From Saccharomonospora glauca K62 (lineage in GTDB: Bacteria; Actinomycetota; Actinomycetes; Mycobacteriales; Pseudonocardiaceae): 64,000 bases of DNA. This document shows positions 520 to 41,412 of this stretch, one piece after another. The stretch is taken from positions 2,073,202 to 2,137,201 of the forward strand of contig NZ_CM001484.1 of assembly GCF_000243395.2 (NCBI RefSeq), given 5' to 3'. Position numbers and translations under genes: made by a program. How positions within the stretch are numbered: position 1 is the first letter of the stretch; each line of letters starts with the position of its first letter. The notes below the pieces were generated by a model. The model was not told where the DNA came from. It saw only the letters and a list, made by a program, of their open reading frames with translations, and did no database searches.

Positions 520-1053
520 GTGGCAGCCAAGCGAGTGATCTTTCCCGTGACGTCGACCCGACGTGTGGAGTTGTGTCCGGCGACGGCCGCGGACCAGTCG
601 GAATTCTTTCGCACGGTGTTGCGGACGGGCATCGAGAGCGTGCGGCCGATGGCACGCGCGGATGGAGTGGGACCGCGTCCGAACGCGGCCTTCACGGTCC
701 GCAACCGAATGAGCGGGGAACAGCTCGGGTTCAGCCTGCTGTTCGGCCTCGACGAGGCCGGACACATTCGTTGCGGAACGTATCTCGATCCGGAACTCAA
801 CCGATTGGGACTCGGCGGGGACGCCATCGGTTTGACCATCAACTACACCTTTGCGCAATTCAATGTGGATCGAGTGATCACGGAGACCACCGAGGCGAGT
901 CTCGGCTCGTTCGGGATGCGGCCGGGGGACGAACGGGTGCTCACGGTCCTTCCCGATTTCCTGTACTTCCGGGGCCGTTACTGGAACCTCTACGGTTTCC
1001 AGGTGGAACGGCACGAGTGGGTCAGCGACGACCAGGAGATCGTCGATGATTAA
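520..1053 (+). CDS. GNAT-family N-acetyltransferase-like protein 1
   Basis: Encodes a 177-residue protein starting at GTG just after AGGGG. The fold suggested by sequence is GNAT: an N-terminal RRVELCPATAADQ strand-helix and a central GHIRCGTYLDPELNRLGLGGDAIGLTINYTF region in the place of the acetyl-CoA loop. A C-terminal strand contains FLYFRGRYWNLYGF. It is clearly paralogous to the protein at 15280-15933 (shared RR[VI].LCPA[TS]A.D and VRDATALTTNFAF-like blocks). Two such genes bracketing the cluster's left arm suggest acyl transfer to the peptide or to an amino sugar, but the substrate is not evident. The canonical Q/RxxGxG/A acetyl-CoA motif is poorly conserved, so family membership is moderately sure and function is not. 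Confidence 0.6.
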   Translation: MAAKRVIFPVTSTRRVELCPATAADQSEFFRTVLRTGIESVRPMARADGVGPRPNAAFTVRNRMSGEQLGFSLLFGLDEAGHIRCGTYLDPELNRLGLGGDAIGLTINYTFAQFNVDRVITETTEASLGSFGMRPGDERVLTVLPDFLYFRGRYWNLYGFQVERHEWVSDDQEIVDD

Positions 1054-1059
1054 GGTGTC

Positions 1060-1087
1060 GTCGTTGTCTCGCCGGCGGGACAACGAC
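1060..1087. promoter_or_regulatory. Cluster palindrome box, copy 1
   Basis: The 16-bp box GTCTCGCCGGCGGGAC (1066-1081) is extended here by GTCGTT and AACGAC to a 28-bp palindrome with one internal mismatch. It starts 6 bp after the GNAT stop codon and lies directly upstream of a possible promoter (TACGAT at 1112-1117) for the ligase operon. The same box recurs at 9147, 15963, 16007 and 35650, always between genes. A terminator role is less likely because there is no loop and no T-tract, and because the other copies sit in divergent gaps. An operator is inferred. Confidence 0.55.
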
Positions 1088-1205
1088 CTGGCCACGGGGT
1101 AATACCTGCTATACGATTCGTTCGCTCGTTTTCCTCGCCTCGTCCTCGCAGAGGATTCTTTTCATCCGGGATTCGTGCCTCAATGGAACCGAGGAGCGGT
1201 TTGTC

Positions 1206-2534
1206 GTGACGTACTCCGAACTATCGCCGGAGGAACTCCTGGCCGAGGGTTTCTTCTCACCGCGGATCACCGAGGAACCCTGGGTGGTGCGCTGGGACCG
1301 GTTCGACGGCGACCTCGCAGCCATCGAGGCCATGGTGCTCGACGCCCTCCCGGAGACGGTGGTGTTCCACACCTCCGGAACCACCGGCGCCAGTCGGGCG
1401 TGGTACCGAAAGAAGCAATTCCTCTGGGCCGAGGCCTCGATGCTGGCGAGGCTGTTGGCTCCCCGAGCGCCCGAAGCGGCGTTGTCCTTCGTGCACCCGA
1501 AACATCTCTACGGCGCGTTGAGCAGCGTTCTCGTGCCCGCGAGGCTCGGTATCCCGGTCTGGTACCGACCGCAGGTCACGGGCCAGCTGCCCCCGGTCGA
1601 CGAGCACCGTCACTGGGCGGTCATGGCCATCCCCTGGGTCTTCGCCGTGTTGCGACGGCACATGGCCTGGATTCGCTCCCTCGACCAGGTCACCGTGCTG
1701 CACGCGAGCGGCATGATCCCCGATGCCGCACTGCATTTCCTCGCCGAGGCGGGGCCGGAGCGCGCCCGCATCATCGAGGTCTTCGGCGCGACCGAGTCCG
1801 GTGGGGTCGGCACCCGGCAGTGGTCCGAGGGCGATCCGCCCGACTGGTCACTGATCGACGACGTCTCCTTCGTCGATCCGGTGGTACCGGGTGAGGGGGA
1901 GGTCCCGTTGAAGATCCGCAGTCCACGGCTTGCCTTCCTCGGGGAGAACGAGGCTCCGGACCACTGTCAGCTGGACGACTACGTACAGCGCCTCTCCGAC
2001 CGGAGCTTCCGTTTCAGCGGTCGCCGTACGAGGTTGGTGAACATCAACGGACGCCGGTTCAACTTGGACCGTCTGGAGGACCTTCTCAGCCCTGTGCTCG
2101 ACTGCGTCGACTACGCGATCCGGCCCGTGACCGATCCGGTGGTCGGGGAGCACATCGAGCTCGTGGTGGTGCTCAAGGAGCACACCGAACTGTCGGATCT
2201 CGACCTGACGACGGCGTTCGAGCGTATCGGGGTACGACCACGGCGAGTTCGTGCCGTGAAGGCGATCGACCGCACCGAGATCGGAAAGTTCCGTCGAGTC
2301 CAGAAGCCAGAATCGACTGACGCAGGAGCCTTAGAGCGTGTCTCGTTTGGATCTTGGTTGGGTTGCGGGCATGATCTTGGTTCGTGGTTGATGAGTTGTC
2401 GCGGCGGTTGGTGCCTGATGAGCTGTGGGCACTGGTCGAACCGCTGGTCCCTGCGCATCAGGTTCGTCCGCAGGGAGGCGGACGGTCGCGCGTGGATGAT
2501 CGTGCTGTGTTCACCGCGATCGTGTTCGTGCTGA
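1206..2534 (+). CDS. Adenylate-forming acyl ligase, C-terminal end altered by IS insertion
   Basis: Member of the ANL superfamily that activates a carboxylic acid as acyl-AMP. Start is GTG. Visible motifs are the P-loop HTSGTTGASR near residue 57, VFGATESGG (A5-like), FSGRRTRLVNINGRR (hinge and A8) and the catalytic Lys in TEIGKFRR close to the end. At about 377 residues it is shorter than a full CoA ligase, mainly at the N-terminus. Without the IS the frame would read GCC TTA ACG TGA, ending at 377 residues. With the IS at 2334 the frame continues into IS sequence and gains a foreign tail of about 67 residues (442 total). The catalytic Lys is retained. It probably activates an aryl acid for the free carrier protein at 16229; the ammonia-lyase downstream suggests coumarate/cinnamate or a beta-amino acid. 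The substrate is inferred. Confidence 0.75.
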   Translation: MTYSELSPEELLAEGFFSPRITEEPWVVRWDRFDGDLAAIEAMVLDALPETVVFHTSGTTGASRAWYRKKQFLWAEASMLARLLAPRAPEAALSFVHPKHLYGALSSVLVPARLGIPVWYRPQVTGQLPPVDEHRHWAVMAIPWVFAVLRRHMAWIRSLDQVTVLHASGMIPDAALHFLAEAGPERARIIEVFGATESGGVGTRQWSEGDPPDWSLIDDVSFVDPVVPGEGEVPLKIRSPRLAFLGENEAPDHCQLDDYVQRLSDRSFRFSGRRTRLVNINGRRFNLDRLEDLLSPVLDCVDYAIRPVTDPVVGEHIELVVVLKEHTELSDLDLTTAFERIGVRPRRVRAVKAIDRTEIGKFRRVQKPESTDAGALERVSFGSWLGCGHDLGSWLMSCRGGWCLMSCGHWSNRWSLRIRFVRREADGRAWMIVLCSPRSCSC

Positions 2535-2743
2535 CAAGCGGGTGCGCTTGGCGACACCTGCCACCCAGCTTCGGAGTGAAGGTCCCGACCGCGCATCGTC
2601 GCTTCACCGAGTGGACGAAAGCCGGATTATGGCGCAGGTTGCATCGCGCGGTACTCGATGAACTCGGCAGCCAGGGAATGATCGACTGGTCCCGCGCGGT
2701 CCTGGACGGAGCCTCCGTCAGGGCCAAAAGGGGGGATCTCTGA
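2384..2743 (+). CDS. IS5-family transposase, first frame (OrfA)
   Basis: The 119-residue first frame begins MVDELSRRLVPDELWALVEPLVP, the usual start of this family. It contains the DUF4096-like N-terminal domain (FVLTSGCAWRHLPPSFGVKVPTAHRRFTEW) and the first catalytic Asp in DWSRAVLDGASVRA. It stops at TGA 2741-2743, just past AAAAGGGGGG (2726-2735). A -1 shift in that run would read on as AKKGGSLTGPSPVDRG into the second frame, the known expression strategy of IS427-type elements. Alone it lacks two of the three DDE residues. Confidence 0.88.
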   Translation: MVDELSRRLVPDELWALVEPLVPAHQVRPQGGGRSRVDDRAVFTAIVFVLTSGCAWRHLPPSFGVKVPTAHRRFTEWTKAGLWRRLHRAVLDELGSQGMIDWSRAVLDGASVRAKRGDL

Positions 2744-3192
2744 CCGGTCCCAGTCCTGTGGACCGCGGGAAACCCGGCTCGAAGATCCATGCACTGTCCG
2801 ACCGGGCGGGACTGCCGCTGGCGGTCGCGATCTCGGCCGCGAACACCAACGACGCGCACGCCCTCAAACCGCTGATTCTGGCCATCCCCGCCGTGAAATC
2901 CCGGCGGGGGCCCCGCCGGCGCAAGCCGGACAAGCTCCACGCCGACAAAGCCTACGACCAGGCCGAACTCCGAGACTGGGTACGCAAGCAAGGAATCACC
3001 GTGCGCATCGCCCGCAAAGGCATCGAATCCAGCCAGAAACTCGGCAAGCACCGCTGGGTCATCGAACGATGTATCGCGTGGCTGTTCGGATACCGACGAT
3101 TGACCATACGCTACGAGCGCTACGCCAACCACTTCTGCGCCTTCCTCACTCTCGCCGCAGCCCTCACCTGCTTCAAGAAACTCGCGAAATGA
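2728..3192 (+). CDS. IS5-family transposase, second frame (OrfB, catalytic DDE part)
   Basis: This frame is entered by -1 frameshifting near 2728; an independent GTG at 2758 is possible. It encodes the DDE_Tnp_1 catalytic core: GSKIHALSDRAGLPLAV, the second Asp in LHADKAYD, and the Glu in HRWVIERCIAWL. Its TGA (3190-3192) overlaps an ATG (3189-3191) in frame with the ammonia-lyase gene, so ribosomes finishing the transposase can restart on the lyase. No internal stop is seen. Confidence 0.88.
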   Translation, partial: KGGSLTGPSPVDRGKPGSKIHALSDRAGLPLAVAISAANTNDAHALKPLILAIPAVKSRRGPRRRKPDKLHADKAYDQAELRDWVRKQGITVRIARKGIESSQKLGKHRWVIERCIAWLFGYRRLTIRYERYANHFCAFLTLAAALTCFKKLAK

Positions 3193-4715
3193 GACATGCT
3201 CTTAACGTGACCATTTCCGCCGAGAGCCGAACCGACCTGTCGCTCGACGAGATCTTCCGGAGCGCGGTGCGGGAACGCCACCTTCCCCCGTTGAGCGACG
3301 AGGAAGTGGCTCGCATGCGGGCATGCGCGGCGACGGTCGCCAAGGAACTCGCCGCCGACAAACCGATCTACGGATTGACCCAGGGGTTCGGCCCGCTGGT
3401 GCTGTTCGAAGCCGAGTCGGAGTTGGAACAGGGCGACAGTCTCATCTCCCACCTCGGCACCGCGCAGGGCGAGTCTCTCCCGCCAGAGGTGTGCCGACTC
3501 GTCGTCTGGCTGAGATTGAACAGCATGCGCAAGGGGTTCTCCGCGGTGTCGCCGGACTTCTGGAACCGGTTGGCGGAGGCGTGGAGAGCCGGATTCGTCC
3601 CGGCCATTCCCCGGCACGGCACGGTCAGCGCCAGTGGAGATCTCCAGCCACTCGCGCACGCGGCGTTGAGTCACACGGGGCGAGGGGAGGCCTGGGTGCG
3701 AGCCTCGTCCGGTGGTTGGGAGACCCGGCCGGCCGCCGAGGTGCTGGCCGACCTGGGCATCGAGCCTTTCGTCTGGCCGGTCCGGGAGGCGCTCGCCTTC
3801 GTCAACGGTACGGGAGTCAGTCTCGCGGTCGCGATCGTCAACCAGCTCTCCGCACTCACCCTCGTGCGTGCCGGTGCATTGCTGACCGGGCGGATCAACG
3901 CCCTGCTCGGCTCGAATCCCGAGCACTACGAGCCCGGAATAGGCATCGCCCGAGGCCAGGACGGTCAGCGTCGCGCGGCCCAGTGGATTCGCCGGGAGCT
4001 GCCCGGCCACGCCGAGCGTGACCCCGCTCGACCGTTGCAGGAGCCCTACAGTCTTCGGTGCGGTCCGCAGGTCCTCGGGGCGGCACTCGACCAGCTGACC
4101 TTCGCGGGTGAGGTCCTGCGTCGGGAGGCGAACGGAGTCACCGACAACCCGATCGTGTTCGAGGACCAGGTCCTGCACGGCGGCAACTTCCATGCCATGC
4201 CGGTGGGCTTCGCCTCCGAACAGACCGGACTGGCCCTGCACTCGGCGGTGTATCTGTCGGAACGCCAGCTCGGTCTGTTGGTCAGCCCGGTCACCAACGG
4301 CGATCTTCCCCCGATGCTCACCCCACGTCCGGGACGCGGCGCGGGTCTGGCCGGTGTGCAGTTGAGCGCCACGTCGTTCGTCTCCCGGATACGCCAGCTC
4401 GTGTATCCCGCTTCGCTGACCACGCTGCCGACCAACGGCTGGAACCAGGACCACGTGCCCATGGCGTTGAACGGTGCGAACTCGGTCGCCGAGGCCCTCG
4501 ACCTGGGGTGGCTGGTGATCGGCTCCCTCGGGGTGGCCGTGGCGCAACTGACGGCGATGCTGGGACGGAGCGCAGCTGCGACGGACCCGTGGGCCGAACT
4601 CGCCGAGATCTCGCCGCCCCTGGACGTGGACCGACCGATGGCCGCCGAGGTGCGCTCGGCACGTGACGTCCTGCGTCGGGCCGCGGAGGACTTGCTGACC
4701 ACGTCGCCCGCGTGA
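3189..4715 (+). CDS. MIO-type aromatic amino acid ammonia-lyase or 2,3-aminomutase
   Basis: Member of the HAL/PAL/TAL family. The self-forming MIO cofactor motif Ala-Ser-Gly is at residues 142-144 counted from the ancestral GTG at 3207 (SASGDLQPLAHA). The lid tyrosine lies in IYGLTQGFG (Tyr55). The selectivity pair after SLIS is His82-Leu83, the combination seen in tyrosine-specific enzymes. Further family motifs are FVNGTG, EPYSLRCGPQVLG, DNPIVF and NQDHVPM. Length (502) fits a bacterial enzyme. It could make 4-coumarate (lyase) or beta-tyrosine (aminomutase); sequence alone cannot decide. The IS removed the native GGAG ribosome-binding site from the GTG. The ATG at 3189, overlapping the transposase stop, now gives a 508-residue product beginning MRHALN. 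The gene overlaps the next one by GTGA at 4712. Confidence 0.85.
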   Translation: MRHALNVTISAESRTDLSLDEIFRSAVRERHLPPLSDEEVARMRACAATVAKELAADKPIYGLTQGFGPLVLFEAESELEQGDSLISHLGTAQGESLPPEVCRLVVWLRLNSMRKGFSAVSPDFWNRLAEAWRAGFVPAIPRHGTVSASGDLQPLAHAALSHTGRGEAWVRASSGGWETRPAAEVLADLGIEPFVWPVREALAFVNGTGVSLAVAIVNQLSALTLVRAGALLTGRINALLGSNPEHYEPGIGIARGQDGQRRAAQWIRRELPGHAERDPARPLQEPYSLRCGPQVLGAALDQLTFAGEVLRREANGVTDNPIVFEDQVLHGGNFHAMPVGFASEQTGLALHSAVYLSERQLGLLVSPVTNGDLPPMLTPRPGRGAGLAGVQLSATSFVSRIRQLVYPASLTTLPTNGWNQDHVPMALNGANSVAEALDLGWLVIGSLGVAVAQLTAMLGRSAAATDPWAELAEISPPLDVDRPMAAEVRSARDVLRRAAEDLLTTSPA

Positions 4716-4747
4716 ACGGTCCGACGCCACGAGGCGGGGAGGTGACG

Positions 4748-6550
4748 GTGAGTTCCGAGAGGGCCACGATGTTGCGGGCTTCGGCCTGGCGGGACCTGCT
4801 GACATACCTCGCGCCTCATCGGACGCTGGTGACGGTCGGTGCGCTGTTCACGATGTGTGGCTCGCTGGTGGGTTTGACCCAGCCGATGATGGCCAAGTGG
4901 ATCGTCGACGCGCTGGGTGAGGGCCGCGCCGTGTTGGGGCCGATCCTGTTGTTGACCGCGGCCGTCGTGGTCGGTGCCGCGTTGGCCGCGATCGGGTACT
5001 GGTTGTTGGGGCGGGTTGCCGAGTCGGTGGTCCTGACGGCCCGGACGAGCATGCTCGGACGAATCCTGCGCATGCGCTTGGCCGAGACCGGTCGGCTCCA
5101 GCCGGGCGATTTGATGTCCAGGGTCACCGCGGACACGACCTTGCTCCGGCAGTCGGTCAGCCAGACCCTCGTGGACGCGCTCAAAGGGTTGCTGATGCTG
5201 GTGGCCGTGGTGGTGGCGATGGTGCTCCTGGACGCGGTGCTGCTGTTGGTCACCGTCGCGGTGCTGGCCGTCGCGGCGTTGCTGATCGCCCTGGTCGTGC
5301 CGTTCTTCCAGCGCTACAGCGCGAAAGTGCAGGAGTCGATCGGGGACATCAACGCGGTCCTGGAACGGTTGCTCGGCGCCTTCCGGACGGTGAAGTCGTC
5401 CGGCGCCGAGCCGGGGGAGGCGGAGAAACTGCGTGTCTCCACCGACCGAGCATGGTTCTTCGGACTTCGGTTGGCGCGTCTGAGCGGGATCGTCAGCGCC
5501 GGCGCACTGCTGGCCATCCACGTCTCTTTTCTGGCGGTCCTCGGGGTGGGCGGGGCCCGTGTGGCCTCCGGTGCCATCCCCGTCGGCACTTTGATCGCGT
5601 TCCTGTTGTACCTCTTCGCGCTGATCGAGCCCGTGGCCGGGCTGATCACCGCCGCGTCCACGTTCAGCACCGGGGTGGCCGCGATACGGCGTATCCGGGA
5701 GGTCGAGCGCCTCGAGGTGGAGTCGGTGGGCGAGCGAGCCCGGTCGGGCACCGGTGACCCGCGTCCCGCCGCGTTGTCCTTCCACGACGTGCACTTCGCC
5801 TATCCCGACGGAACCGCCGTGCATCACGGGGTGTCCTTCGCGATCCCACCCGGTGGGTTGACCGCGGTGGTGGGCCCGTCGGGAGCGGGCAAGTCCACCC
5901 TCTTCTCGCTCGTCGAACGGTTCTACGACCCGGTACGGGGAAGTATCACGATGGACGGCAAGGACATCCGCGACTGGCCGCTGGTCGAGTTGCGTGCCGT
6001 CATCGGGTACGTGGAACAGGACGCGCCGGTTCTGGCGGGGACCCTGCGCGAGAACCTGGTCATGGGCGCGGTCGAGCCCATCTCGGAGGACGAGATTCGG
6101 GCCGTGCTCGAACGCACCAGGCTCACCGAGCTGGTCGACCGGCTGCCCGACGGCCTCGACAGCCGGGTCGGTCATCGGGGCAACACCCTGTCGGGAGGGG
6201 AACGTCAACGCGTCGCCATCGCGCGGGCACTCCTTCGCAAGCCGCGGTTGCTGTTGCTCGACGAAGCCACCTCGCAACTGGACGCGGTGAACGAGGCCGC
6301 GCTCCGGGACGTCGTGGTGGAGGTGGCCGCCGAGCTCACCGTCCTGGTCGTCGCCCATCGTCTGTCCACGGTGACCAAGGCCGACCGCATCCTGGTGATG
6401 GAGGCCGGGCGGATCCGGGCCGTCGGCTCGCACGAGGAGTTGGTGGCCAGTGACGAGCTGTACCGGGAATTGGCCGCGACGCAGCTTCTGGTCGCCGAGG
6501 ACGAGACCGTCGTACCGGCGGTCGGGGACGGCGTCGGTACCCCGCACTGA
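4748..6550 (+). CDS. ABC exporter, fused transmembrane and ATPase domains
   Basis: Half-transporter of about 600 residues with six predicted membrane helices (MdlB/MsbA-type) followed by a nucleotide-binding domain. Walker A is GPSGAGKST, the signature is LSGGERQR, Walker B is LLLLDEATSQLD and the switch His is in VVAHRLSTV. One gene implies a homodimer. The GTG at 4748 is preceded at 5 bp by GGGGAGG and is preferred; an in-frame GTG at 4712 overlaps the lyase stop and would add 12 residues. It forms one operon with the ligase and lyase genes and is the only obvious exporter in the cluster, so product export and self-protection are its likely job. It converges with the FAD monooxygenase gene 15 bp downstream. 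Confidence 0.85.
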   Translation: MSSERATMLRASAWRDLLTYLAPHRTLVTVGALFTMCGSLVGLTQPMMAKWIVDALGEGRAVLGPILLLTAAVVVGAALAAIGYWLLGRVAESVVLTARTSMLGRILRMRLAETGRLQPGDLMSRVTADTTLLRQSVSQTLVDALKGLLMLVAVVVAMVLLDAVLLLVTVAVLAVAALLIALVVPFFQRYSAKVQESIGDINAVLERLLGAFRTVKSSGAEPGEAEKLRVSTDRAWFFGLRLARLSGIVSAGALLAIHVSFLAVLGVGGARVASGAIPVGTLIAFLLYLFALIEPVAGLITAASTFSTGVAAIRRIREVERLEVESVGERARSGTGDPRPAALSFHDVHFAYPDGTAVHHGVSFAIPPGGLTAVVGPSGAGKSTLFSLVERFYDPVRGSITMDGKDIRDWPLVELRAVIGYVEQDAPVLAGTLRENLVMGAVEPISEDEIRAVLERTRLTELVDRLPDGLDSRVGHRGNTLSGGERQRVAIARALLRKPRLLLLDEATSQLDAVNEAALRDVVVEVAAELTVLVVAHRLSTVTKADRILVMEAGRIRAVGSHEELVASDELYRELAATQLLVAEDETVVPAVGDGVGTPH

Positions 6551-6565
6551 CGTGACACATGCCTT

Positions 6566-7816
6566 CTACTTCGTCGAGGCGGCGACGTCGTAGCTGGGGC
6601 GGTTGTTGAGCATCTCCGGATCGAACCCGGCCAGCCGCTTGTACCGAGCGGCGATCTCCTCGCGCTCGGACAACGGCAGGATGTCCTCGACGTCGTCGAA
6701 GCCCTCCGGTGCCCGCTCGTAGGCGAGCTTGATCACGAGTTCCGGGCCCCTCTGCCGATTGGACAGCGTGACCTTGGCCGTGGCGGGTCGCCGTTCGGCC
6801 TCGTACTCCTCGCACGCGGCGACCGGGTCGTCGTGCCGGGCCAGTGCGGAGGCAAGCACGCGAGCGTCCAGAATGGCTTGGGAGGCGCCGTTGGAGCCGA
6901 TGGGGTACATCGGGTGGGCGGCGTCCCCCAAGAGCGTCACGGGCCCGTGTGTCCACCGCGGAAGGGGGTCCCTGTCCACCATGGGGTACTCGTAGACCAC
7001 CGACGCGCGCCGAATCAGGTCCGGTACGTCGAGCCAGTCGAACGTCCACGTGTCGAACCAGTGCAGGAAGTCGTCCGGGGAAACTCGGCGGTTCCAGTCG
7101 CCACGCGACATAGCCTGCCGATCGAGCGGACGCTCGGCCACCCAGTTGACTTCCACCTCTCCCGTGTCGTCCGGATCGGAAATCGGGTACGCGACGAACT
7201 TCTGTACGTCGGTTCCGGCCATGATCATGGATCGGCCCCCACGATAGGGCCGCGCTCTCGTCGTGCCGCGCCACAGGACGAGTCCGTTCCACAGGGGAGC
7301 GGGCTCGGAGGGGTAGAAGCCCTTGCGCACGGCCGAGTGGATGCCATCGGCGCCGATCAACAGGTCGCACGGCCCCACGGAGGAGTCCCCGACCCGTGCG
7401 ATGACCTTTCCGTTCTCGGTCACGACGTCGGTCACCCGGTGACCGGTCCTGACGGTGTCGGGGCCGAGCCGCTCCCGAACGGCGTCCAGCAGCAACATCT
7501 GGAGACGGCCGCGGTGCACGGAGTACTGGGGCCATTTGTAGCCCGCCGCGATCCCTCGCGGTTCCGACCAGATGAGTTGGCCGCGGTGGTTGAAGTACGC
7601 CAGCTCCCCGGTGGGGACACCGATGTCGGACAGCCGAGGGGCCAGACCGAGCTCGGTGAGCTCACGCACGGCGTGGGGCAGAAGGTTGATTCCCACTCCC
7701 AGGGGGCGGATCTCCTTGGCTGCTTCGAGCACGACCACGTCCGTGATGCCCGCGGAATGCAGGCTCAGTGCCGTGGCCAGCCCGCCGATACCGCCACCGG
7801 CGATGACGACTCGCAT
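6566..7816 (-). CDS. FAD-dependent aromatic-ring monooxygenase (PhzS-like)
   Basis: Class A flavoprotein monooxygenase of 416 residues. Motifs are the N-terminal Rossmann GGGIGGLATAL, the DG motif in LLIGADGIHSAVR and the GD motif LLGDAAHPMYPIGSNGASQAI. The C-terminal block RGPELVIKLAYERAPEGFDDVEDILP is characteristic of the PhzS-type subgroup, whose members hydroxylate small aromatic or heteroaromatic substrates using NAD(P)H. GAGGAG precedes the ATG. It follows the first glycosyltransferase by 22 bp on the same strand. Probable role: hydroxylation of an aromatic residue or aryl precursor, which may create a glycosylation point. Substrate is inferred. Confidence 0.8.
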   Translation of the reverse strand: MRVVIAGGGIGGLATALSLHSAGITDVVVLEAAKEIRPLGVGINLLPHAVRELTELGLAPRLSDIGVPTGELAYFNHRGQLIWSEPRGIAAGYKWPQYSVHRGRLQMLLLDAVRERLGPDTVRTGHRVTDVVTENGKVIARVGDSSVGPCDLLIGADGIHSAVRKGFYPSEPAPLWNGLVLWRGTTRARPYRGGRSMIMAGTDVQKFVAYPISDPDDTGEVEVNWVAERPLDRQAMSRGDWNRRVSPDDFLHWFDTWTFDWLDVPDLIRRASVVYEYPMVDRDPLPRWTHGPVTLLGDAAHPMYPIGSNGASQAILDARVLASALARHDDPVAACEEYEAERRPATAKVTLSNRQRGPELVIKLAYERAPEGFDDVEDILPLSEREEIAARYKRLAGFDPEMLNNRPSYDVAASTK

Positions 7817-14072: not shown

Positions 14073-14130
14073 GATGTTCCCTCCTGTCCTCGCGGCGCCG
14101 CGACGGGCCGGTGGCACGTGATGGCTGGGG

Positions 14131-18589: not shown

Positions 18590-18790
18590 ATGTCCTCGGA
18601 CACCTATCTGGTGGTGCTGAACCACGAGGAGCAGTACTCCGTGTGGCCCGCCGATCGGGACCTGCCGGCGGGCTGGAGACCGGAAGGGACCTCGGGGACC
18701 CGTGAGGAATGCCTGGACCACATCGAACGGGTGTGGACCGACATGCGACCTCTGAGCCTGCGGCGGCGGATGGACGACGAGTCCCGCTGA
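18590..18790 (+). CDS. MbtH-like NRPS accessory protein
   Basis: 66 residues with the full family signature: [15 protein letters not shown], and a C-terminal [10 protein letters not shown]. MbtH proteins bind adenylation domains and are often required for their solubility and activity. It lies 12 bp after the SbnB homologue and just before the first NRPS gene, so its partners are the A domains encoded immediately downstream. AGAGGAG precedes the ATG. Confidence 0.95.
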
Positions 18791-31005: not shown

Positions 31006-31010
31006 ACGAC

Positions 31011-32303: not shown

Positions 32304-33026
32304 GTGAGAACGTTCGTGTACGAAAGCACTTATGTCGATGTGTACGACCTTGTCATGCGGAACCGTCCGAAAGATTACGAAAAAGAGGCGGCCAGCGTCG
32401 TCGAGGTGATTAGGGAGCGTAATGGCTCTGCTCGTTCACTGCTGGACGTGGCGTGTGGAACCGGCCTTCATCTTCGCTATCTGGCCGACGCGTTCGACTC
32501 GGTCGAGGGGGTCGATCTGTCGCCCGACATGCTTGCACTGGCGCGGAAGCGCATTCCACGGGCCACGTTCAGTCAGGGTGACATGAGAACTTTGGACCGT
32601 GGTGCGAAATTCTCGGCCGTGACGTGCCTTTTCGCGATCCCGCATCTGAGTTCCGAAAAAGAACTGAAAAAAACCGTGAGGTCGCTGGTCGACCATCTCG
32701 AACCCGGCGGTGTCGTCGTCGTCGAGCCGTGGTTCACCCCGGAACAGTTCCTTCCGGGATACATCGCCAGTGATGTCGTGAAGGACGGAGATCGGGTCGT
32801 ACACCGGCTGTCGCATTCGGTTCTGGTCGGGCCGCAAGAGGTGAAGATGACCATACACTACGCCGTCGCGGAAACCGATAGAGGAATTCGGAACGTCACC
32901 CGAACAGTTGACATGACGCTGTTCACCGACGCGCAGTACGAGGAGGCGTTCCGGGACGCCGGATGCGCGGCCGAGTTCCTGCCGTTGCCGGCGTTCACCA
33001 GAGGGGTGTGGGTCGCTCAACGGTGA
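32304..33026 (+). CDS. Amino-sugar N,N-dimethyltransferase (DesVI-like)
   Basis: About 240 residues, class I SAM methyltransferase. LLDVACGTGLHLRYLADAF is motif I, and VEGVDLSPDMLALARKR, FSQGDMRTL and LEPGGVVVVEPWFTPE match the DesVI/TylM1 family closely. These enzymes methylate the amine of an NDP-3-amino-trideoxyhexose twice. GTG at 32304 has AAAGGA upstream; GTG 32316 is also possible and aligns better with DesVI. With the DegT aminotransferase at 14131 it implies a dimethylamino sugar. It is divergent from the small membrane protein (63-bp gap) and convergent with glycosyltransferase 2. Confidence 0.85.
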   Translation: MRTFVYESTYVDVYDLVMRNRPKDYEKEAASVVEVIRERNGSARSLLDVACGTGLHLRYLADAFDSVEGVDLSPDMLALARKRIPRATFSQGDMRTLDRGAKFSAVTCLFAIPHLSSEKELKKTVRSLVDHLEPGGVVVVEPWFTPEQFLPGYIASDVVKDGDRVVHRLSHSVLVGPQEVKMTIHYAVAETDRGIRNVTRTVDMTLFTDAQYEEAFRDAGCAAEFLPLPAFTRGVWVAQR

Positions 33027-35833: not shown

Positions 35834-36799
35834 ATGCCTGAAGAACTGACCTCCGGTGCTCTGCGACTGAGCCGGATGGGGCTTGGATGCACCTCGATTT
35901 CGCACGGATACCGTCCGACGGCGGCCGAACAAGAGGAGTCGATCCGCGTTATTCACCGCGCCCTCGATCTCGGTGTCTCGGTCTTCGACACCGCCGACGT
36001 CTACGGCCCGTACAGCAACGAACGGATGCTCGGCCGTGGACTCAAGGGGCGAAGGTCCCGGGCGGTGATCGCCACGAAGGTGGGCCTGGTGGCGCAACCC
36101 GACGGTAAACTCAGCCGCAACGGTCATCCGCGGCACATTCGCGCGGCTTGTGAGAACTCGCTCAGCCGGCTGCAGACTGACGTCATCGATCTCTACCAGT
36201 TGCATCGCGTCGATCCCGACGTGCCGTTGGAGGAGACGTGGGGAGCGATGGCGGAGCTGGTGCACGAGGGGAAGGTCAGGGGACTCGGCATCTCGCACGC
36301 CAGCGTGGAGGAACTGGAGCGGGTCCACGCGTTGTTCCCGATCAGCGCCGTGCAGTACGAACTGTCCATCTGGGCCCCTCACAGCCGGGAAGTGTTGCAG
36401 TGGTGCGAACGAACCAGGACTCCGTTCCTGGCTTTCTCCCCACTGGGGCGCGGTTTCCTCGCCGGTCAGGTGGACCCTTCGAAACTCGACAGTCGTGATC
36501 CTCGCACTCGTGACCCGCGATTTTCCCGACAAGCCTACGAGGCGAACAAAGCCATCGTGGAAGGTATCGCTCGGGTGGCCGCCCGGTTGAACGCCACTCC
36601 CGCCCAGGTGTCCATCGCCTGGGTTTTGGCGCAGAGCGATCTGGTCGTACCGATTCCGGCGACGAAACGATTGCGTTGGCTCGAACAGAACGTGGCCGCT
36701 GCGGATCTGAAACTCAGCGAGGAGGACTTGCGCGAACTCTCGGAACTGCCCGAGGCCGTGGGCAGGATGAGATGGGACTACGCCCGTTCGGGCCGCTGA
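35834..36799 (+). CDS. Aldo/keto reductase
   Basis: 321 residues, (beta/alpha)8 AKR. The catalytic tetrad is visible as Asp and Tyr in FDTADVYGP, Lys in VIATKVG and His in LYQLHRVDP. NADPH-binding elements are FSPLGRGFL and IPATKRLRWLEQN. In deoxysugar clusters AKRs of the EryBII/TylCII kind reduce C-2/C-3 of the 3,4-diketo sugar, giving the opposite C-3 configuration from the Gfo/Idh-type ketoreductase. That would fit two different sugars, but the sequence also resembles general AKRs, so the role is inferred. First gene of a five-gene + operon. Confidence 0.8.
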   Translation: MPEELTSGALRLSRMGLGCTSISHGYRPTAAEQEESIRVIHRALDLGVSVFDTADVYGPYSNERMLGRGLKGRRSRAVIATKVGLVAQPDGKLSRNGHPRHIRAACENSLSRLQTDVIDLYQLHRVDPDVPLEETWGAMAELVHEGKVRGLGISHASVEELERVHALFPISAVQYELSIWAPHSREVLQWCERTRTPFLAFSPLGRGFLAGQVDPSKLDSRDPRTRDPRFSRQAYEANKAIVEGIARVAARLNATPAQVSIAWVLAQSDLVVPIPATKRLRWLEQNVAAADLKLSEEDLRELSELPEAVGRMRWDYARSGR

Positions 36800-36837: not shown

Positions 36838-37842
36838 GTGACAGGCGGGCTTACGGAACCGTTGGTCGTCGTACTCGGTGCGTCCGGCCTCGTGGGAACG
36901 GCGGTGGTGAGGGAGCTGTCGAGTCGTCCGGTGCGACTGCGGCTCGTGGGGCGCAGACCCATGACGGTGGCGGACGGTCGTCGGGCGAAGATCGAGGTCC
37001 GTCGGGCCGACCTCGCCGAGCCGGGTGCGGTGGCGGAGGCCGTCGCCGGTGCCGACGTGGTCGTGCACCTCGTGGCCCATACCGCGGGTTCCGCGACCTG
37101 GCGGGTCTCCTCGAACGACGAAATCGCCGAGCGGGTCAACCTCGGTCTGGTGCTCGATCTCATCGAGGCGTTCCGGACGCGTCCCGCGGGTGGTGAACCA
37201 CCGATCGTCCTCTTCGCCGGTTCGATGTCGCAGTGCGGGAAAGCCGGCATCGACCGCATCGACGAGTCCATCCCGGACTTCCCCCTGACCACCTACGACC
37301 GTCACAAGATGGAGGCCGAGAACGCCCTCAAGGCCGCCACGGCCGACAACGTGGTGAGGGGTGTCGTCCTTCGCCTGGCGACGTTGTTCGGTCAGGGCAC
37401 CGACTCCGCGACTCTGGACAAGGGGCTCGTCTCGACGATGATCCGGCGAGCGCTCGCCGGACTGCCGCTGACGATGTGGCACGACGGGAGCGTCACCAGG
37501 GACCTGGTCTGCAGCGACGACGTGGCCCGCGCGTTCGTCGCGGCGATGGACAACGCGGACGCCCTCGTGGGACGGCATTGGCTGGTGGGCACGGGACACG
37601 CCGTGTCGGTGAAGGAGTTGTTCGACCGGATCGCGGACACCGTCGCCGAGGTGACGGGGAGGCCGCGGGTCCCGGTGCTTCGGGTGGCTCCTCCGGATCA
37701 TGCCAGCCCCACTGACTTCCTCGATTTCGCGCTGAATCCCACAGCGTTCCAAGAGGCGAGTGGGTGGAGAGCGACGATCAGATGGGACGAGGCTCTCGTT
37801 CGTACCGTGTCCGCCATCGCTTCCGGCGCCTCCGACACCTGA
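36838..37842 (+). CDS. NDP-hexose 4-ketoreductase (extended SDR)
   Basis: 334 residues; GTG with AAGGAG 7 bp upstream. Motifs are GASGLVG for NAD(P)H and the catalytic Tyr-x3-Lys in TYDRHKMEAE. The C-terminal region VTRDLVCSDDVARAFVAAMDNA is usual for this family. It reduces the C-4 ketone as the last step of NDP-deoxysugar synthesis. It follows the aldo/keto reductase by 38 bp and precedes glycosyltransferase 4 by 14 bp. Confidence 0.83.
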   Translation: MTGGLTEPLVVVLGASGLVGTAVVRELSSRPVRLRLVGRRPMTVADGRRAKIEVRRADLAEPGAVAEAVAGADVVVHLVAHTAGSATWRVSSNDEIAERVNLGLVLDLIEAFRTRPAGGEPPIVLFAGSMSQCGKAGIDRIDESIPDFPLTTYDRHKMEAENALKAATADNVVRGVVLRLATLFGQGTDSATLDKGLVSTMIRRALAGLPLTMWHDGSVTRDLVCSDDVARAFVAAMDNADALVGRHWLVGTGHAVSVKELFDRIADTVAEVTGRPRVPVLRVAPPDHASPTDFLDFALNPTAFQEASGWRATIRWDEALVRTVSAIASGASDT

Positions 37843-37856: not shown

Positions 37857-39164
37857 GTGCGTGTCCTGTTCGCCACCTACGCCGAGAAGACTCACTTCCT
37901 GAGCATGGTGCCGCTGGCCTGGGCCCTGCGCTCGTCCGGACACGACGTCCGGGTCGCCAGCCAGCCGGAACTCGTCGACGTGATCACGGACGCGGGCTTG
38001 CCCGCCGTGCCGGTCGGGACCGATCACAACCTCTGGGTGGCGGTCCGACGACTTCTCAACGAGAGGTTCGCCCGCTTCGACCCCGAGGGGTACGCGGCGA
38101 TGCGGATGGGGCGGACGCCGCCGTTCGATCTTCCCTCGGACCCCGGTCGGATCACTCCCGACTACTTGCGGGCGGCGGACGAGGACATGGCCGCGATGGC
38201 ACGAATGATCAACTCCTCCATGGTCGACGACCTGGTGACGTTCGCCCGGCAGTGGCGGCCCGAGTTGGTGATCTGGGAACCGACTACGTACTGCGCGGCG
38301 ATCGCGGCACGGGCGGTGGGGGCCACGCATGTCCGCTTCCTGTGGGGGCCGGACCACTACGGTGCAGTGCGTTCGAGCTTCCTGCGGGCGCGGCTGGATT
38401 GCGACGCGCTGGGCGGGTGGATCGGTGAACGGGCACATCGTCACGGCGTGTCGTTCTCCGAGGACCTGGTGACCGGACAGGCGACGCTGGACCAGTTGCC
38501 GCCGCCCCTGCGCAGGCGCGGTGAGCTCACCTACCTTCCGCTTCGCTACGTGCCGTACGGAGGCCGTGCCGTGGTGCCCGACTGGCTCCGGGATCGACCC
38601 GGACGTCGGCGGGTCGCATTGACCTTGGGGCTCAGCGCGACCGAGAGGTTCGACGGTTACGTGATTCCCGTCCCGGAGATCCTGCGGGCACTGGGCGACG
38701 TCGACGTCGAGGTGGTCGCCACGATCGCCGAATCGGAGCAGGCGAGTCTCGGGGAACTCCCCGACAACGTGCGGGTGGTGGCGTTCACGCCGCTGCACGC
38801 GTTGCTCTCCACGTGCGACGCCGTGATCCACCACGGGGGTGCGGGCACCGTGGCGACCACCACTCTGCTCGGGATTCCTCAGCTGGTGATCCCCGACCAG
38901 GGAGACGGGGAACACGCGGCACGCCGGTTGGCCGAACACGGAGCGGGATTGATGGTGCAACCCGGTGCCGCGGACGGCGCCACCGTCCGGGACGGGGTTT
39001 CCGCGTTGCTGGACGATCCCGCTTTCGCCGCGCGTGCCAAGGACCTGCGCGAGGACGTGCTGCGTCTTCCCCCGCCGAACGAGGTGGCCGATCGGCTGGT
39101 GCAAATCGCCGGAGCGGCGGGAGCCGGACAGCGAACGAGACGGACCGATGCGGAGGCGTGTTGA
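37857..39164 (+). CDS. Glycosyltransferase 4 (DesVII/EryCIII-like)
   Basis: 435 residues from GTG 37857 (VRVLFATYAEKTHFLSMVPLAWALRSSGHDVRVASQPE). The TDHNLW, VPYGGRAVVPDWL and VVAFTPLHALLSTCDAVIHHGGAGT blocks place it with the other three. It is the only glycosyltransferase on the + strand and lies in an operon with sugar reductases and the aminotransferase. Its stop codon overlaps the next start as TGATG. Confidence 0.86.
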   Translation: MRVLFATYAEKTHFLSMVPLAWALRSSGHDVRVASQPELVDVITDAGLPAVPVGTDHNLWVAVRRLLNERFARFDPEGYAAMRMGRTPPFDLPSDPGRITPDYLRAADEDMAAMARMINSSMVDDLVTFARQWRPELVIWEPTTYCAAIAARAVGATHVRFLWGPDHYGAVRSSFLRARLDCDALGGWIGERAHRHGVSFSEDLVTGQATLDQLPPPLRRRGELTYLPLRYVPYGGRAVVPDWLRDRPGRRRVALTLGLSATERFDGYVIPVPEILRALGDVDVEVVATIAESEQASLGELPDNVRVVAFTPLHALLSTCDAVIHHGGAGTVATTTLLGIPQLVIPDQGDGEHAARRLAEHGAGLMVQPGAADGATVRDGVSALLDDPAFAARAKDLREDVLRLPPPNEVADRLVQIAGAAGAGQRTRRTDAEAC

Positions 39165-40366
39165 TGACCGAAGACGACAGGAGCGGCGCCGGTGCAGCCC
39201 GTGAGCCGTACTCGAAGCGCGCGCGTGACGTGCCGAGCGGTGGTCTCGTCACGTTGCTCGGCAGCGACCAAGCCCGCACCGCGGTGGACCTCGCGACCGG
39301 GACTCCCGCCGCACCGAAACCGGCCGACCAGCTGGTCGACGCCGCGTGCTCCATGCTGCGAGCCGGAGTCCATCAGTACGAGGCTCCGGCGGGGAATGCC
39401 GAACTCCGGTCCCGGATCGCCGGATCCTTCACCACGCCGGCCGATCCGGACACCGAGATAACGGTCACCGTGGGAGGGACCGAGGCGCTGTTCGTGGCAC
39501 TACTGTCCATTATAGACCCCGGTGACGAGGTCGTGATCTTCGACCCTTACTACGACAACTTCCTCGGGTCACTGGCCCTGGCCGGTGCGATCCCCCGATT
39601 CGTTCCCCTGCGAGCACCGGAATGGCGGTTCGACCCCGCCGAGCTCGCTGCCGCGTTCACCCCGCGCACGAAGGCGGTGCTCCTCAACACCCCACACAAC
39701 CCCACCGGAAGGGTCCTCGATCGGGAGGAACTGGACCACCTCGCCGCGCTGTGCGAGAAGTGGGGCGCCTTGGTGATCAGTGACGAGGTGTATTCGGCCT
39801 ACACCTACGACGACCACACGCACGTGTCCCTCGCGGACGTGCCGGCGCTGGCGCAGCGCAGCATCGTGGTCGGCAGCCTTTCGAAAAGTCATGCCTTGAG
39901 CGGGTGGCGGATGGGATTTCTGCGAGCCGCTCCGGAGCACACCCGTGTGCTCCGGCAGGTCCACATCGCGGTCACCGGAGGTACGGCGGCGCCCCTGCAG
40001 CGAGCCGTGGTGAATTCGGGGGTGCTGGAGCCGGGAGCGTGGCGGCCGGCGGACGAATTGCAGAAGGCCCGCGACCGGGTGATCGAGATCTTCTCCGGAA
40101 TCGGGTTGAAGTGCTGTCGGCCGCAGGGAGGTTGCTACGTGATGGCCGACGTGCGTCCCGTGACGAACGGTGACTGTCATGATTTCGCCACGGCGTTGCT
40201 CGACCACGCCGGGGTTCTGGTGGTGCCGAGCACCGTGCTGTTCGCCGAGCCCGCCGACGGCAACGCGTACGTCCGTATCGCTTTCAACAAGTCCGAGACG
40301 TTGATCGAGGAAGCCGCCCGACGCATCGAACGCGCGCGGCGCACCTGGCCGTTGGCGACCGTGTGA
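39164..40366 (+). CDS. Class I/II PLP aminotransferase
   Basis: 400 residues, aspartate-aminotransferase fold. The PLP Lys is in VGSLSKSHALSGWRMGF. NTPHNPTGRV, VISDEVYSAYTYDD and the C-terminal Arg in AYVRIAFNKSE are present. The N-terminus (PSGGLVTLLGSDQARTAVDLATGTPAAP) is usual for amino acid rather than sugar aminotransferases. It overlaps glycosyltransferase 4 by one base and precedes the MppJ-like methyltransferase. The pair suggests reversible conversion between an aromatic amino acid and its 2-keto acid, allowing methylation at the beta carbon in between. Confidence 0.82.
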   Translation: MTEDDRSGAGAAREPYSKRARDVPSGGLVTLLGSDQARTAVDLATGTPAAPKPADQLVDAACSMLRAGVHQYEAPAGNAELRSRIAGSFTTPADPDTEITVTVGGTEALFVALLSIIDPGDEVVIFDPYYDNFLGSLALAGAIPRFVPLRAPEWRFDPAELAAAFTPRTKAVLLNTPHNPTGRVLDREELDHLAALCEKWGALVISDEVYSAYTYDDHTHVSLADVPALAQRSIVVGSLSKSHALSGWRMGFLRAAPEHTRVLRQVHIAVTGGTAAPLQRAVVNSGVLEPGAWRPADELQKARDRVIEIFSGIGLKCCRPQGGCYVMADVRPVTNGDCHDFATALLDHAGVLVVPSTVLFAEPADGNAYVRIAFNKSETLIEEAARRIERARRTWPLATV

Positions 40367-40410
40367 GTCGCCGTCCCCTTTGTGTTCCCCAACCCGTCCG
40401 GAGGCAACTC

Positions 40411-41412
40411 GTGACCACCACCGACAACGGCCGCCGGGAGCTCTCGGTCGCTGATATGTTCAACTCCACCGTCGCGGCGGCCGCGCTCGGTGCCGCGTGG
40501 GAACTGGGAGCTTTGGACGAGCTCCACCGCGTGGGAGCCCTCGACGTCGACTCGTTCGCGACCGAGGGAGAACTCCATCTTCCTTCGGTCGAGGAGATGT
40601 TTCGCGCGCTGGCGTCGGTCGGGATCGTCGAGCGGGACAACCGCAAGGTCCGGCCCGGCCGGGCGTTCGCCGCGGCCTACCGGGCGAAGCCCCTCTTCTA
40701 CTGGCTGTGGCAGGGCTCGGGCGAGTTGTTCGCCAGGATGCCCGCGTTGCTCCGTAACGCCAACCGCATCGGTACCTTCTACCACCGGGACGCCAAGGCG
40801 GTCAGCTACGCGAGCCGACAGGCCAACGCCACGTTCTTCGACCCGGTGTTCCGGCAGGCGATGAGGCCGCTCGAAGGCCGCTTCTCCACGGTCGTCGACC
40901 TCGGGTCGGGGAGCGGCGAGCGCGTGATCCAAATCGCGGAGGAGAATCCCGCCGTTCGGGCGTACGGGCTCGACATCGCCGACGAGGTCGTCGCGATGGC
41001 GAACGAGGAGGCCGAGAGGCGGGGGTTGGCCGACCGGGTCACATTCCTCACCGCCGACGTGCGCGAGCTGTCGCCTCGTCCCGAGTTCGCCGGGACGGAA
41101 CTGCTCACCTGCTTCATGATGGGCCACGACCTGTGGCCGAGGGACGAGGCGATCGTTTCCCTGCGCAGACTGCGTGAGCTGTTCCCGAACGTCCGACGGT
41201 TCCTTCTGGGGGACACGGTGCGGACGGTCGGCATCCCCGACGAGGAGATTCCGGTCTTCACCCTCGGTTTCGAGCTCGGGCACACGTTGATGGGCCAGTA
41301 CTTGCCCACGGCGGAGGAGTGGCGAGGGGTGTTCGCCGAGGGAGGATGGCGCTGCGTCGGTGAACACGGCAGCGACGTGTTGGCGGGCACGGTGGTGTTC
41401 GAGCTGGAGTGA
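40411..41412 (+). CDS. MppJ-like 2-keto-acid beta-C-methyltransferase
   Basis: 333 residues; GTG with GGAGG 7 bp upstream. Residues 1-~110 form a winged-helix dimerisation domain, followed by a SAM fold with VVDLGSGSGERVIQIAEE. The blocks VADMFNSTVAAAALGAAWELGALDEL, WQGSGELFARMP, TCFMMGHDLWP and TRTVGIPD-like VRTVGIPDEEIPVFTLGFELGH are very close to what I remember of MppJ of mannopeptimycin. MppJ is an iron-dependent enzyme that methylates phenylpyruvate at the beta carbon. Two His (MMGHD, ELGH) are in the positions expected for metal binding. Expected product: a beta-methylated aryl pyruvate, then aminated by the neighbouring aminotransferase. Last cluster gene on this side. Confidence 0.82.
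   Translation: MTTTDNGRRELSVADMFNSTVAAAALGAAWELGALDELHRVGALDVDSFATEGELHLPSVEEMFRALASVGIVERDNRKVRPGRAFAAAYRAKPLFYWLWQGSGELFARMPALLRNANRIGTFYHRDAKAVSYASRQANATFFDPVFRQAMRPLEGRFSTVVDLGSGSGERVIQIAEENPAVRAYGLDIADEVVAMANEEAERRGLADRVTFLTADVRELSPRPEFAGTELLTCFMMGHDLWPRDEAIVSLRRLRELFPNVRRFLLGDTVRTVGIPDEEIPVFTLGFELGHTLMGQYLPTAEEWRGVFAEGGWRCVGEHGSDVLAGTVVFELE

Follow-up and report, generated by a model that had tools for sequence, protein, structure and literature searches.

The stretch analyzed here (the window) comprises 64,000 nucleotides of Saccharomonospora glauca K62, C1:2073202-2137201 of a 4.56-Mb genome in two contigs, and has a G+C content of 67.8%. Between positions 520 and 41412 it carries a biosynthetic gene cluster with a high third-position G+C in its genes, comprising two genes for non-ribosomal peptide synthetases (NRPSs), the pair SbnA/SbnB, an OTC-family carbamoyltransferase, an MIO lyase, an MppJ-like methyltransferase, seven deoxysugar genes and four glycosyltransferases. 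Most of a cluster for a glycopeptide antibiotic of the saarvienin type is likely to be contained in this block, and its product would most likely be a saarvienin congener. The same inventory had been drawn up in an earlier annotation made without database searches (the sequence-only reading), and each of its elements was recovered. The NRPSs hold four modules, with four adenylation (A), three condensation (C) and four thiolation (T) domains and a terminal thioesterase (TE). SbnA (TIGR03945) and SbnB (TIGR03944), the genes for 2,3-diaminopropionate (Dap), both exceeded the curated cut-offs. The deoxysugar genes encode a Gfo/Idh reductase, a 3,5-epimerase, a 2,3-dehydratase, a DegT aminotransferase, an N-methyltransferase, an aldo-keto reductase and an NAD-epimerase-type reductase, and the glycosyltransferases are all EryCIII-type. 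The coordinates are collected in Table 1.

All of the named elements lie within the one 41-kb block that had been proposed, but its left edge at position 520 is not a cluster boundary, as about 9 kb more lie upstream. In the 20 kb analyzed upstream of the window (G000:C1:2053202-2073201), this part encodes a SARP-type regulator, a second dTDP-sugar 3,5-epimerase, a flavin reductase, a Na/H antiporter, an RmlA-type nucleotidyltransferase, a bPH_2 protein whose gene spans the window edge and, in adjacent genes, a TcaB9-like sugar C-methyltransferase and a tryptophan halogenase. The last two lay outside the view of the sequence-only reading. The right flank consists of AHSA1- and ArsR-type genes, followed by aromatic-catabolism genes. 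Because the latter (homogentisate-dioxygenase-like, fumarylacetoacetase-like and CoA-transferase genes) occupy 43087-47840, the cluster seems to end near 41412, at about 41.4 kb. The gene cluster is real, large and nearly complete, and most of it lies inside the window.

Saarvienin A, a tetrapeptide reported in 2025, has the sequence Dap-(beta-methyl-chloro-Trp)-Dap-D-Phe; its first Dap bears a 4-hydroxyphenyllactic unit (HHPP), a urea joins the two Dap side chains, and the sugar chain eremosamine-rhamnose-N-methyleremosamine-digitoxose-N,O-dimethyleremosamine is attached to HHPP. The compound gives aglycone and ring ions at m/z 762.264 and 451.149 and is active against vancomycin- and daptomycin-resistant Gram-positive bacteria (PMC12171682). 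The cluster proposed for it, BGC14 of Amycolatopsis sp. YIM10, was described with NRPSs of four and two modules, the smaller of which has a C domain with Cys in place of the first His of HHxxxDG. Also described for it are coupled halogenase/methyltransferase genes, seven genes for aminosugars (N- and O-methylation among their functions), four glycosyltransferases, Dap genes and, assigned to HHPP, an aromatic lyase and an AMP-binding protein (PMC12171682). A cluster in the genome G856 encodes a four-module NRPS of 4221 amino acids and a two-module NRPS of 2409 amino acids with CHAILDG in the last C domain, a halogenase that adjoins a C-methyltransferase, four glycosyltransferases (all EryCIII-type by Pfam), a TylF-type O-methyltransferase, Dap genes, and an aromatic lyase with an AMP-binding protein. 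Because it fits the checkable main-text statements on BGC14, we infer that the G856 cluster is BGC14 of YIM10; no single feature identifies it, because CHxxxDG also occurs in five other clusters compared below. The 20 kb upstream of the G856 AMP-binding gene contain a histidine kinase, bPH_2 genes, an RmlA-type gene and a copy of the GNAT-like gene 1 (GNAT1); glycosyltransferases beyond the four were not found there.

Orthology between the window and the G856 cluster is mostly at 55–80% identity with reciprocal best matches. Such matches were obtained for the MIO lyase, the AMP-binding protein, the ABC exporter, the FAD-dependent monooxygenase, the MaoC-SDR protein, the DegT aminotransferase, the 2,3-dehydratase, SbnA, SbnB, the OTC-family protein, the class I/II aminotransferase and the MppJ-like protein (identities in Table 1), for the two NRPSs (61% and 64%), and upstream of the window for the C-methyltransferase (74%), the halogenase (78%), the flavin reductase (64%) and the antiporter (62%). 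The RmlA-type gene (71%), GNAT1 and the MbtH-like gene were matched by tblastn, and a small frame at 31980-32240 reached 46%; the bPH_2, insertion sequence (IS) and 16229-16552 frames had no match in the protein comparison with the G856 cluster. Shared with BGC14/G856 are the Dap genes, the OTC-family enzyme, the aromatic lyase and AMP-binding protein, the halogenase with its flavin reductase, the MppJ-like methyltransferase with its aminotransferase, an aminosugar set with the C-methyltransferase, the RmlA-type gene, two GNAT-like genes, four glycosyltransferases, the ABC exporter, the antiporter and four NRPS modules orthologous to modules 3-6. The sequence-only reading had known of no described compound with this gene set; at the cluster level there is one, as saarvienin A and its candidate cluster (PMC12171682) match it. 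Its chemistry, a glycosylated tetrapeptide with Dap, carbamoylated Dap and a beta-methylated aromatic residue, fits this nearest characterized compound.

Relatives were collected by searching genome contigs with the OTC-family protein, and the best 80 of 199 confirmed stretches were used. Ten clusters with enough NRPS were compared: those of the window, Streptomyces atratus, S. abikoensis, Nocardiopsis terrae, Herbidospora yilanensis, Herbidospora sakaeratensis, Herbidospora galbida, Prauserella cavernicola, Salinispora pacifica and G856. G667, G687 and G189, the last of these present as short pieces only, were left out of the cluster counts; the pieces examined of G667 and G687 hold the lyase and sugar genes and lack this NRPS. 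In S. abikoensis the A1 type is common to the family and the other three modules are of a different type. The Streptomyces atratus OK807 cluster has two plus two NRPS modules and nearly the same gene order from GNAT1 to the N-methyltransferase at 56–84% identity, but in the stretch examined it differs from the window in lacking a halogenase, a close MppJ homologue and SbnB, and in a threonine code in A3. From literature searched by chemistry or by the strain YIM10, we know of no product for this cluster or for those of H. yilanensis, H. sakaeratensis, Salinispora pacifica, Prauserella, S. abikoensis and G667. Matches to the MIO lyase at E<=1e-120 were found in 4/397 genomes of an order-level sampling (own genome included), one of them at only 49% identity, and the OTC-family protein was commoner (61/390 genomes of the family at E<=1e-85; 16/394 of the class at E<=1e-60). 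EryCIII-type glycosyltransferases at >=45% numbered eight in H. yilanensis and in H. sakaeratensis, five in Salinispora pacifica, seven in S. abikoensis and ten in G667 within the stretches examined, and ten in Prauserella, some of them partial, in a stretch that is cut at its edge. Sulfotransferase and NodU-type carbamoyltransferase genes were seen in the H. yilanensis, H. sakaeratensis and Salinispora clusters, an HpaB-type hydroxylase in those of H. yilanensis, H. sakaeratensis, S. abikoensis and G667, and a group II intron maturase gene in that of S. atratus (L109:9148-10446).

In a tree of 53 A domains, from which two non-cluster A-type domains and four duplicate window rows had been removed beforehand, the four A domains of the window were distributed, one apiece, over the clades of G856 modules 3, 4, 5 and 6, with support of 100/97 or better for the position clades. 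The A-domain codes were taken from a MAFFT alignment of these domains, with positions set by GrsA numbering. For window and G856, respectively, they are DAWQFATID and DAWQLATID (A1), DPEAVALIA and DPEAIALIF (A2), DVWNIAKVH and DVWNVAMVH (A3), and DVMQ-GMMF and DVLI-GMVY (A4); A2-A4 differ at 2, 2 and 4 of the 9 positions compared, and the register of the A4 code is uncertain, an alternative by-eye reading being VTWQVGMMF. The A2 position is variable in the family, with diamine-like codes in other relatives (DVDENGTVT, DLEFQGSIV and similar). Modules 1 and 2 are absent from the window and from S. atratus, and module 1 is absent from the five-module N. terrae cluster. Because the tree pairs the four window modules with modules 3-6 of G856, modules 1-2 look dispensable; the simplest reading would be that modules 3-6 make a Dap-aromatic-Dap-X core and that the last C domain is not skipped. 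The window has a 2+2 layout with HHAVLDG in that domain, not the 4+2 layout and CHxxxDG of the published cluster, which were treated as features of one cluster and not as defining the saarvienin type. No extra condensation-type (epimerization) domain was found among the domain matches of the window NRPSs.

The OTC-family protein was analyzed in an alignment of 100 rows, made up of the window protein, 80 loci of the OTC scan and 19 of the family-level sampling. STRTR and HPTQ, the carbamoyl-phosphate motifs of the transcarbamylase family, were kept in 100/100 rows; in all of them RWxTTG (YTTRWQTTG in the window protein) replaces the loop DxxxSMG of ornithine transcarbamylase (OTCase), and HDLP stands at the OTCase HCLP position, although the rows, chosen for their similarity and in part drawn from shared genomes, are not independent. 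The accessible part of PMC4581275 gives DxxxSMG as the ornithine motif of OTCase and describes L-2,3-diaminopropionate transcarbamylases in the viomycin and zwittermicin clusters that form beta-ureidoalanine, with homologues common in Streptomyces; a diaminobutyrate transcarbamylase is likewise named there. The window protein probably resembles the ureidoalanine-making enzymes, from which a diaminobutyrate enzyme is indistinguishable here, and it may supply the carbon of the urea. The string "carbamoyl" was not found in the main text of PMC12171682.

The A1 code of the window recurs in 8/10 clusters compared, with DAWQLATID in G856 and DALQFATVD in S. abikoensis. We take it to be glutamine-like; ureidoalanine is isosteric with glutamine, and A1 may therefore load ureidoalanine. 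This idea fits the recurrence of A1-type codes (DAWQ[CFS]ATID) beside OTC-family genes in six of the other 72 OTC-scan loci (L048, L068, L078, L082, L083 and L089), four of which have SbnA within the locus and three of these four also SbnB; in many of the other loci no A1-type code was in view. Of the ureidoalanine proposed in the sequence-only reading, the carbamoylated Dap agrees with the nearest compound, but it would probably be an intermediate whose carbonyl ends in a Dap-Dap urea and not a free ureido side chain. In the same scan, OTC-family genes also adjoin NRPSs with Thr-like (DVWNVAMVH/DFWNVGMVH) and DLP-VAEVG codes (L028, L030, L041, L051, L060, L063 and others), which perhaps form another, separate cluster family.

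The MppJ-like protein matched MppJ of mannopeptimycin (PDB 4kib) over its full length at E=2.9e-121, its FMMGHD and GFELGH segments lining up with the GH motifs of MppJ, whose histidines bind metal. In contrast to MppJ, the window enzyme would probably act on an indolepyruvate-type substrate, judged from saarvienin A. The upstream halogenase had tryptophan 5-halogenase (2wet) as its best solved match (908 bits, full length). The beta-modified aromatic residues of the sequence-only reading survive as one beta-methylated aromatic residue, which fits saarvienin A, and a beta-amino acid made through the MIO enzyme is less likely.

For sugars of the eremosamine kind the gene set provides 2,3-dehydratase, aminotransferase, 3-C-methyltransferase, 3,5-epimerase, 4-ketoreductase and N-methyltransferase, together with the four glycosyltransferases. 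The upstream C-methyltransferase had TcaB9 (3ndi) as its best solved match (614 bits), within a group in which some entries are named sugar 3-C-methyl transferase, and a dTDP-glucose 4,6-dehydratase over the cut-off was found elsewhere in the genome (C1:654565). The TIGR04516 cut-off for activator-dependent glycosyltransferases was exceeded by 3/3 proteins scanned, the fourth (7839-9128) being assigned by Pfam; no EryCII-like activator gene turned up among the cluster genes scanned, in which no search was aimed at one. The glycosylation that had been predicted fits the nearest characterized compound. Its dimethylamino sugars are possible, as the closest solved relatives of the N-methyltransferase are dTDP-3-amino-3,6-dideoxyglucose N,N-dimethyltransferases, but the sugars of saarvienin A are N-monomethyl. 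Because no match to the TylF-type O-methyltransferase of G856 was found in the 84 kb of the window region, the O-methyl group of saarvienin is probably missing from the product.

From gene content, orthology, module order and codes, which were read off the sequence, we infer a pathway whose every chemical step, above all the urea closure, is a proposal. SbnA/SbnB would form Dap, and the OTC-family enzyme would turn Dap into ureidoalanine for loading by A1. The aminotransferase and the MppJ-like enzyme would beta-methylate an aromatic keto acid, the halogenase would chlorinate the ring, and A2 would load the product. A3 would load a second Dap or a close analogue and A4 the last residue, and the TE would release the chain. 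The urea macrocycle would then arise by joining the ureido carbon of residue 1 to the side-chain amine of residue 3, ammonia being lost. An N-terminal hydroxyphenyl acyl unit (HHPP in saarvienin) would come from the MIO lyase and the coumarate-ligase-like enzyme, perhaps together with the MaoC-SDR protein, and the four glycosyltransferases would attach a chain including N-methylated 3-amino-3-C-methyl-2,3,6-trideoxy-L-hexoses and a 2,6-dideoxy sugar. Taken as a whole, this is advanced tentatively, at somewhat under an even chance: that the urea macrocycle of the family is built from ureidoalanine, the Dap transcarbamylase pre-installing the carbonyl, a glutamine-like A domain loading it and the second-Dap amine displacing ammonia; that a natural, minimal line of four modules yields a new congener in this strain; and that a wider group of relatives exists, several with 7 to 10 glycosyltransferase genes and some with a sulfotransferase and a NodU-type carbamoyltransferase.

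Other readings of the assembly line were weighed. Skipping of the last C domain, so that six modules yield one residue less, was raised as a possibility for BGC14 (PMC12171682), and if this module use is correct the four-module version would make a shorter, different peptide. However, 8/10 clusters compared have another residue for the first His of HHxxxDG in their last C domain (Cys in 6, Phe in 2), among them S. abikoensis and the N. terrae cluster with its five modules; HH is kept only in the window and in S. atratus, the two without modules 1-2. The starter C domain of G856 has itself lost its motif (HQSAGGA), and modules 1 and 2 of the six-module clusters carry the codes DILQLGLVW and DLTKVGSVA, which we take to be glycine-like and asparagine-like and thus to stand for residues absent from saarvienin A. 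Together with the grouping of the window A domains with modules 3-6, this makes skipping quite unlikely. GNAT1 was also considered as a substitute for the starter C domain and was ruled out, as G856 has a GNAT1 copy (65%), directly preceding its AMP-binding gene, beside the degenerate starter C domain; GNAT1 had no PDB match up to E=1. A peptide that keeps a free ureidoalanine side chain, with no urea bridge, would suit the presumed glutamine-like code of A1, and A3 carries a threonine code, DFWN(I/V)GMVH, in S. atratus and two of the Herbidospora clusters, so that a Dap-Dap urea is not expected at that position there. Such a product is nevertheless unlikely for the window: both Dap side chains are in the urea in saarvienin A, the one characterized compound, the G856 cluster, which fits this compound, shares the OTC-family enzyme (73%) and has an almost identical A1 code, and in the tree the window A3 is nearer to that of G856 (69%) than to the threonine types.

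The MIO enzyme could alternatively be an aminomutase making a beta-amino acid for A2, as in C-1027-type pathways. It matched TIGR03832 (tyrosine 2,3-aminomutase) and has tyrosine aminomutases, after histidine ammonia-lyases (HAL), among its closest solved structures. Its score of 233 bits is, however, far under the 501-bit cut-off, and scores against the lyase models were likewise far below theirs. The segment SHLGTAQ lines up gapless with a His-Leu pair that we take to mark tyrosine ammonia-lyases, and NQD stands where solved HAL has NQED. In S. atratus and G856 the gene overlaps the coumarate-ligase-like gene by four bases, such a pair was assigned to HHPP in PMC12171682, and saarvienin A has no beta-amino acid of that kind. 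An aminomutase is thus very unlikely; the enzyme is more likely a tyrosine ammonia-lyase, which with its 4-coumarate-ligase-like partner would more likely feed the hydroxyphenyl acyl unit bearing the sugar chain than a beta-amino acid. The MaoC-SDR protein, present in 3/10 clusters compared in the stretches fetched, is a candidate enzyme for the conversion of the coumaroyl unit to HHPP, a guess from co-occurrence, because only the window, S. atratus and G856 have it. It is also conceivable that the cluster does not work in this strain, as an IS element at about 2334-3201 cuts the coumarate-ligase/lyase operon, its larger transposase frame (2758-3192) having six near-identical places in the genome, window copy included, and the C2 motif is atypical. 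Against this, the reading frames on either side are nearly whole, that of the ligase running into the IS for its last ~66 residues and retaining an IGKFRR stretch, and the remaining cluster genes are open frames with high third-position G+C, which makes a non-working cluster improbable. The IS shows imperfect 11-bp ends and a 3-bp direct repeat by eye, and no repeat of >=12 bases was found at its ends.

Several points weigh against the assignment to a saarvienin-type antibiotic. The BGC14 assignment is unvalidated according to its authors, validation being under way (PMC12171682), and the identity of G856 with YIM10 is our own deduction. The window NRPSs have four modules and BGC14 has six; C2 reads PHIVTDE instead of HHxxxDG, so that one of the four could be impaired, although C2 motifs are also atypical in relatives (HHILTDD in S. 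atratus, HHIVCDV in G856). A3 has a lysine where G856 has methionine and A4 is presumably unlike a phenylalanine domain, and residues 3 and 4 may therefore differ from those of saarvienin. Among the sugar genes, the N-methyltransferase is only 41% identical to that of G856, the glycosyltransferases correspond only partly one-to-one, three of the four (33048, 34316 and 37857) and the 3,5-epimerase at 12026 not being reciprocal best matches, and the extra aldo-keto reductase has only a 27% match outside the G856 cluster. The second 3,5-epimerase is likewise extra, the SARP-type regulator has no counterpart in the G856 cluster, and the TylF-type gene and a response regulator of G856 have none in the window region. 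Presence and absence across the clusters pointed by eye to no clear candidate for the urea-closing enzyme, no candidate is established for acyl transfer onto residue 1, and the IS element sits between the coumarate-ligase-like and lyase genes.

Two described groups were compared and set apart. The viomycin and zwittermicin clusters (transcarbamylases VioL and ZmaT), likened here by description, share Dap genes and a transcarbamylase in an NRPS cluster and beta-ureidoalanine formation, as given in the accessible part of PMC4581275, but no ureidodehydroalanine peptide would be expected from the window cluster. Membership in the viomycin/capreomycin group (PMC12400406; PMC9403184, in part) was rejected despite these common genes, as the window aminotransferase scored 137 bits against capreomycidine synthase (TIGR03947, cut-off 390.9). 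Biffamycin A, in the accessible part of PMC13285481, is also a small glycosylated tetrapeptide, from Streptomyces, with a chlorinated tryptophan and two dimodular NRPSs; its SurE-type cyclization, its mannose and its cyclo-Ile-Trp-Lys-Gly core without Dap set it apart, and its 17-gene cluster, as described there, is of another kind.

Table 1. Features of the cluster in the window (percentages are protein identities)
Feature	Position	Strand	Remarks
GNAT-like acyltransferase 1 (GNAT1)	535..1053	+	weak Pfam match below cut-off; 75% to S. atratus, 65% to G856 copy
AMP-binding, short 4-coumarate-CoA-ligase-like protein	1206..2534	+	69% to G856, 76% to S. atratus
IS element	2334..3201	+	transposase frames 2507-2743 and 2758-3192; ends by eye
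MIO aromatic amino acid lyase, probably tyrosine ammonia-lyase	3189..4715	+	start 3189 or 3207; 77% to G856, 84% to S. atratus
ABC exporter, fused permease/ATPase	4712..6550	+	74% to G856
FAD-dependent monooxygenase (NF005720)	6566..7816	-	72% to G856
Glycosyltransferase 4, EryCIII-type	7839..9128	-	66% to G856; 75% to S. atratus; reciprocal best
MaoC-like + SDR fusion protein, candidate for HHPP making	9435..10934	+	60% to G856, reciprocal best
Gfo/Idh/MocA sugar 3-ketoreductase	10976..11968	-	69% to G856
dTDP-sugar 3,5-epimerase	12026..12637	-	64% to G856, not reciprocal
NDP-hexose 2,3-dehydratase	12672..14117	-	71% to G856
DegT/DnrJ/EryC1 sugar aminotransferase	14131..15240	-	80% to G856
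GNAT-like protein 2	15280..15933	-	no family match; in 10/10 clusters compared, weakest N. terrae 39%
SbnA-type 2,3-diaminopropionate biosynthesis enzyme	16575..17585	+	TIGR03945 over cut-off; start uncertain; 75% to G856
SbnB-type 2,3-diaminopropionate biosynthesis enzyme	17561..18577	+	TIGR03944 over cut-off; 69% to G856
MbtH-like protein	18590..18790	+	83% to G856 by tblastn
NRPS1, A1-T-C2-A2-T	18812..23764	+	A1 DAWQFATID; A2 DPEAVALIA; C2 motif PHIVTDE (atypical)
NRPS2, C3-A3-T-C4-A4-T-TE	23776..31005	+	A3 DVWNIAKVH; A4 DVMQ-GMMF; C motifs HHIAADG, HHAVLDG
OTC-family carbamoyltransferase, probable diaminopropionate transcarbamylase	31002..31928	+	73% to G856
Aminosugar N-methyltransferase	32304..33026	+	41% to G856, 56% to S. 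atratus
Glycosyltransferase 1, EryCIII-type, TIGR04516	33048..34313	-	S. atratus 68% reciprocal; G856 52% not reciprocal
Glycosyltransferase 2, EryCIII-type, TIGR04516	34316..35611	-	60% to G856, not reciprocal
Aldo-keto reductase, deoxysugar type	35876..36799	+	no close counterpart in G856 cluster
NAD-epimerase family sugar 4-ketoreductase	36862..37842	+	55% to G856
Glycosyltransferase 3, EryCIII-type, TIGR04516	37857..39164	+	52% to G856, not reciprocal
Class I/II aminotransferase paired with methyltransferase	39158..40366	+	64% to G856
MppJ-like alpha-keto-acid beta-C-methyltransferase	40363..41412	+	GH motifs of MppJ kept; 63% to G856

Outside the cluster, a cytochrome P450 domain fused to a C-terminal 2Fe-2S ferredoxin domain is encoded at 49393-51747, and two further multi-module NRPS loci were found in the same genome (G000:C1:2266971-2293766 and 2433261-2443715).

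The compound class is already known from the 2025 paper; what this analysis adds is the four-module architecture, the carbamoyltransferase as a candidate source of the urea and the set of relatives. A compact four-module relative in a 4.56-Mb genome offers a simpler system for addressing the BGC14 assignment, module skipping and the origin of the urea carbon, and such a stripped-down form helps to show which parts of the assembly line matter. With these relatives the family extends across several actinomycete genera, and its members differ in residues, sugars and tailoring.

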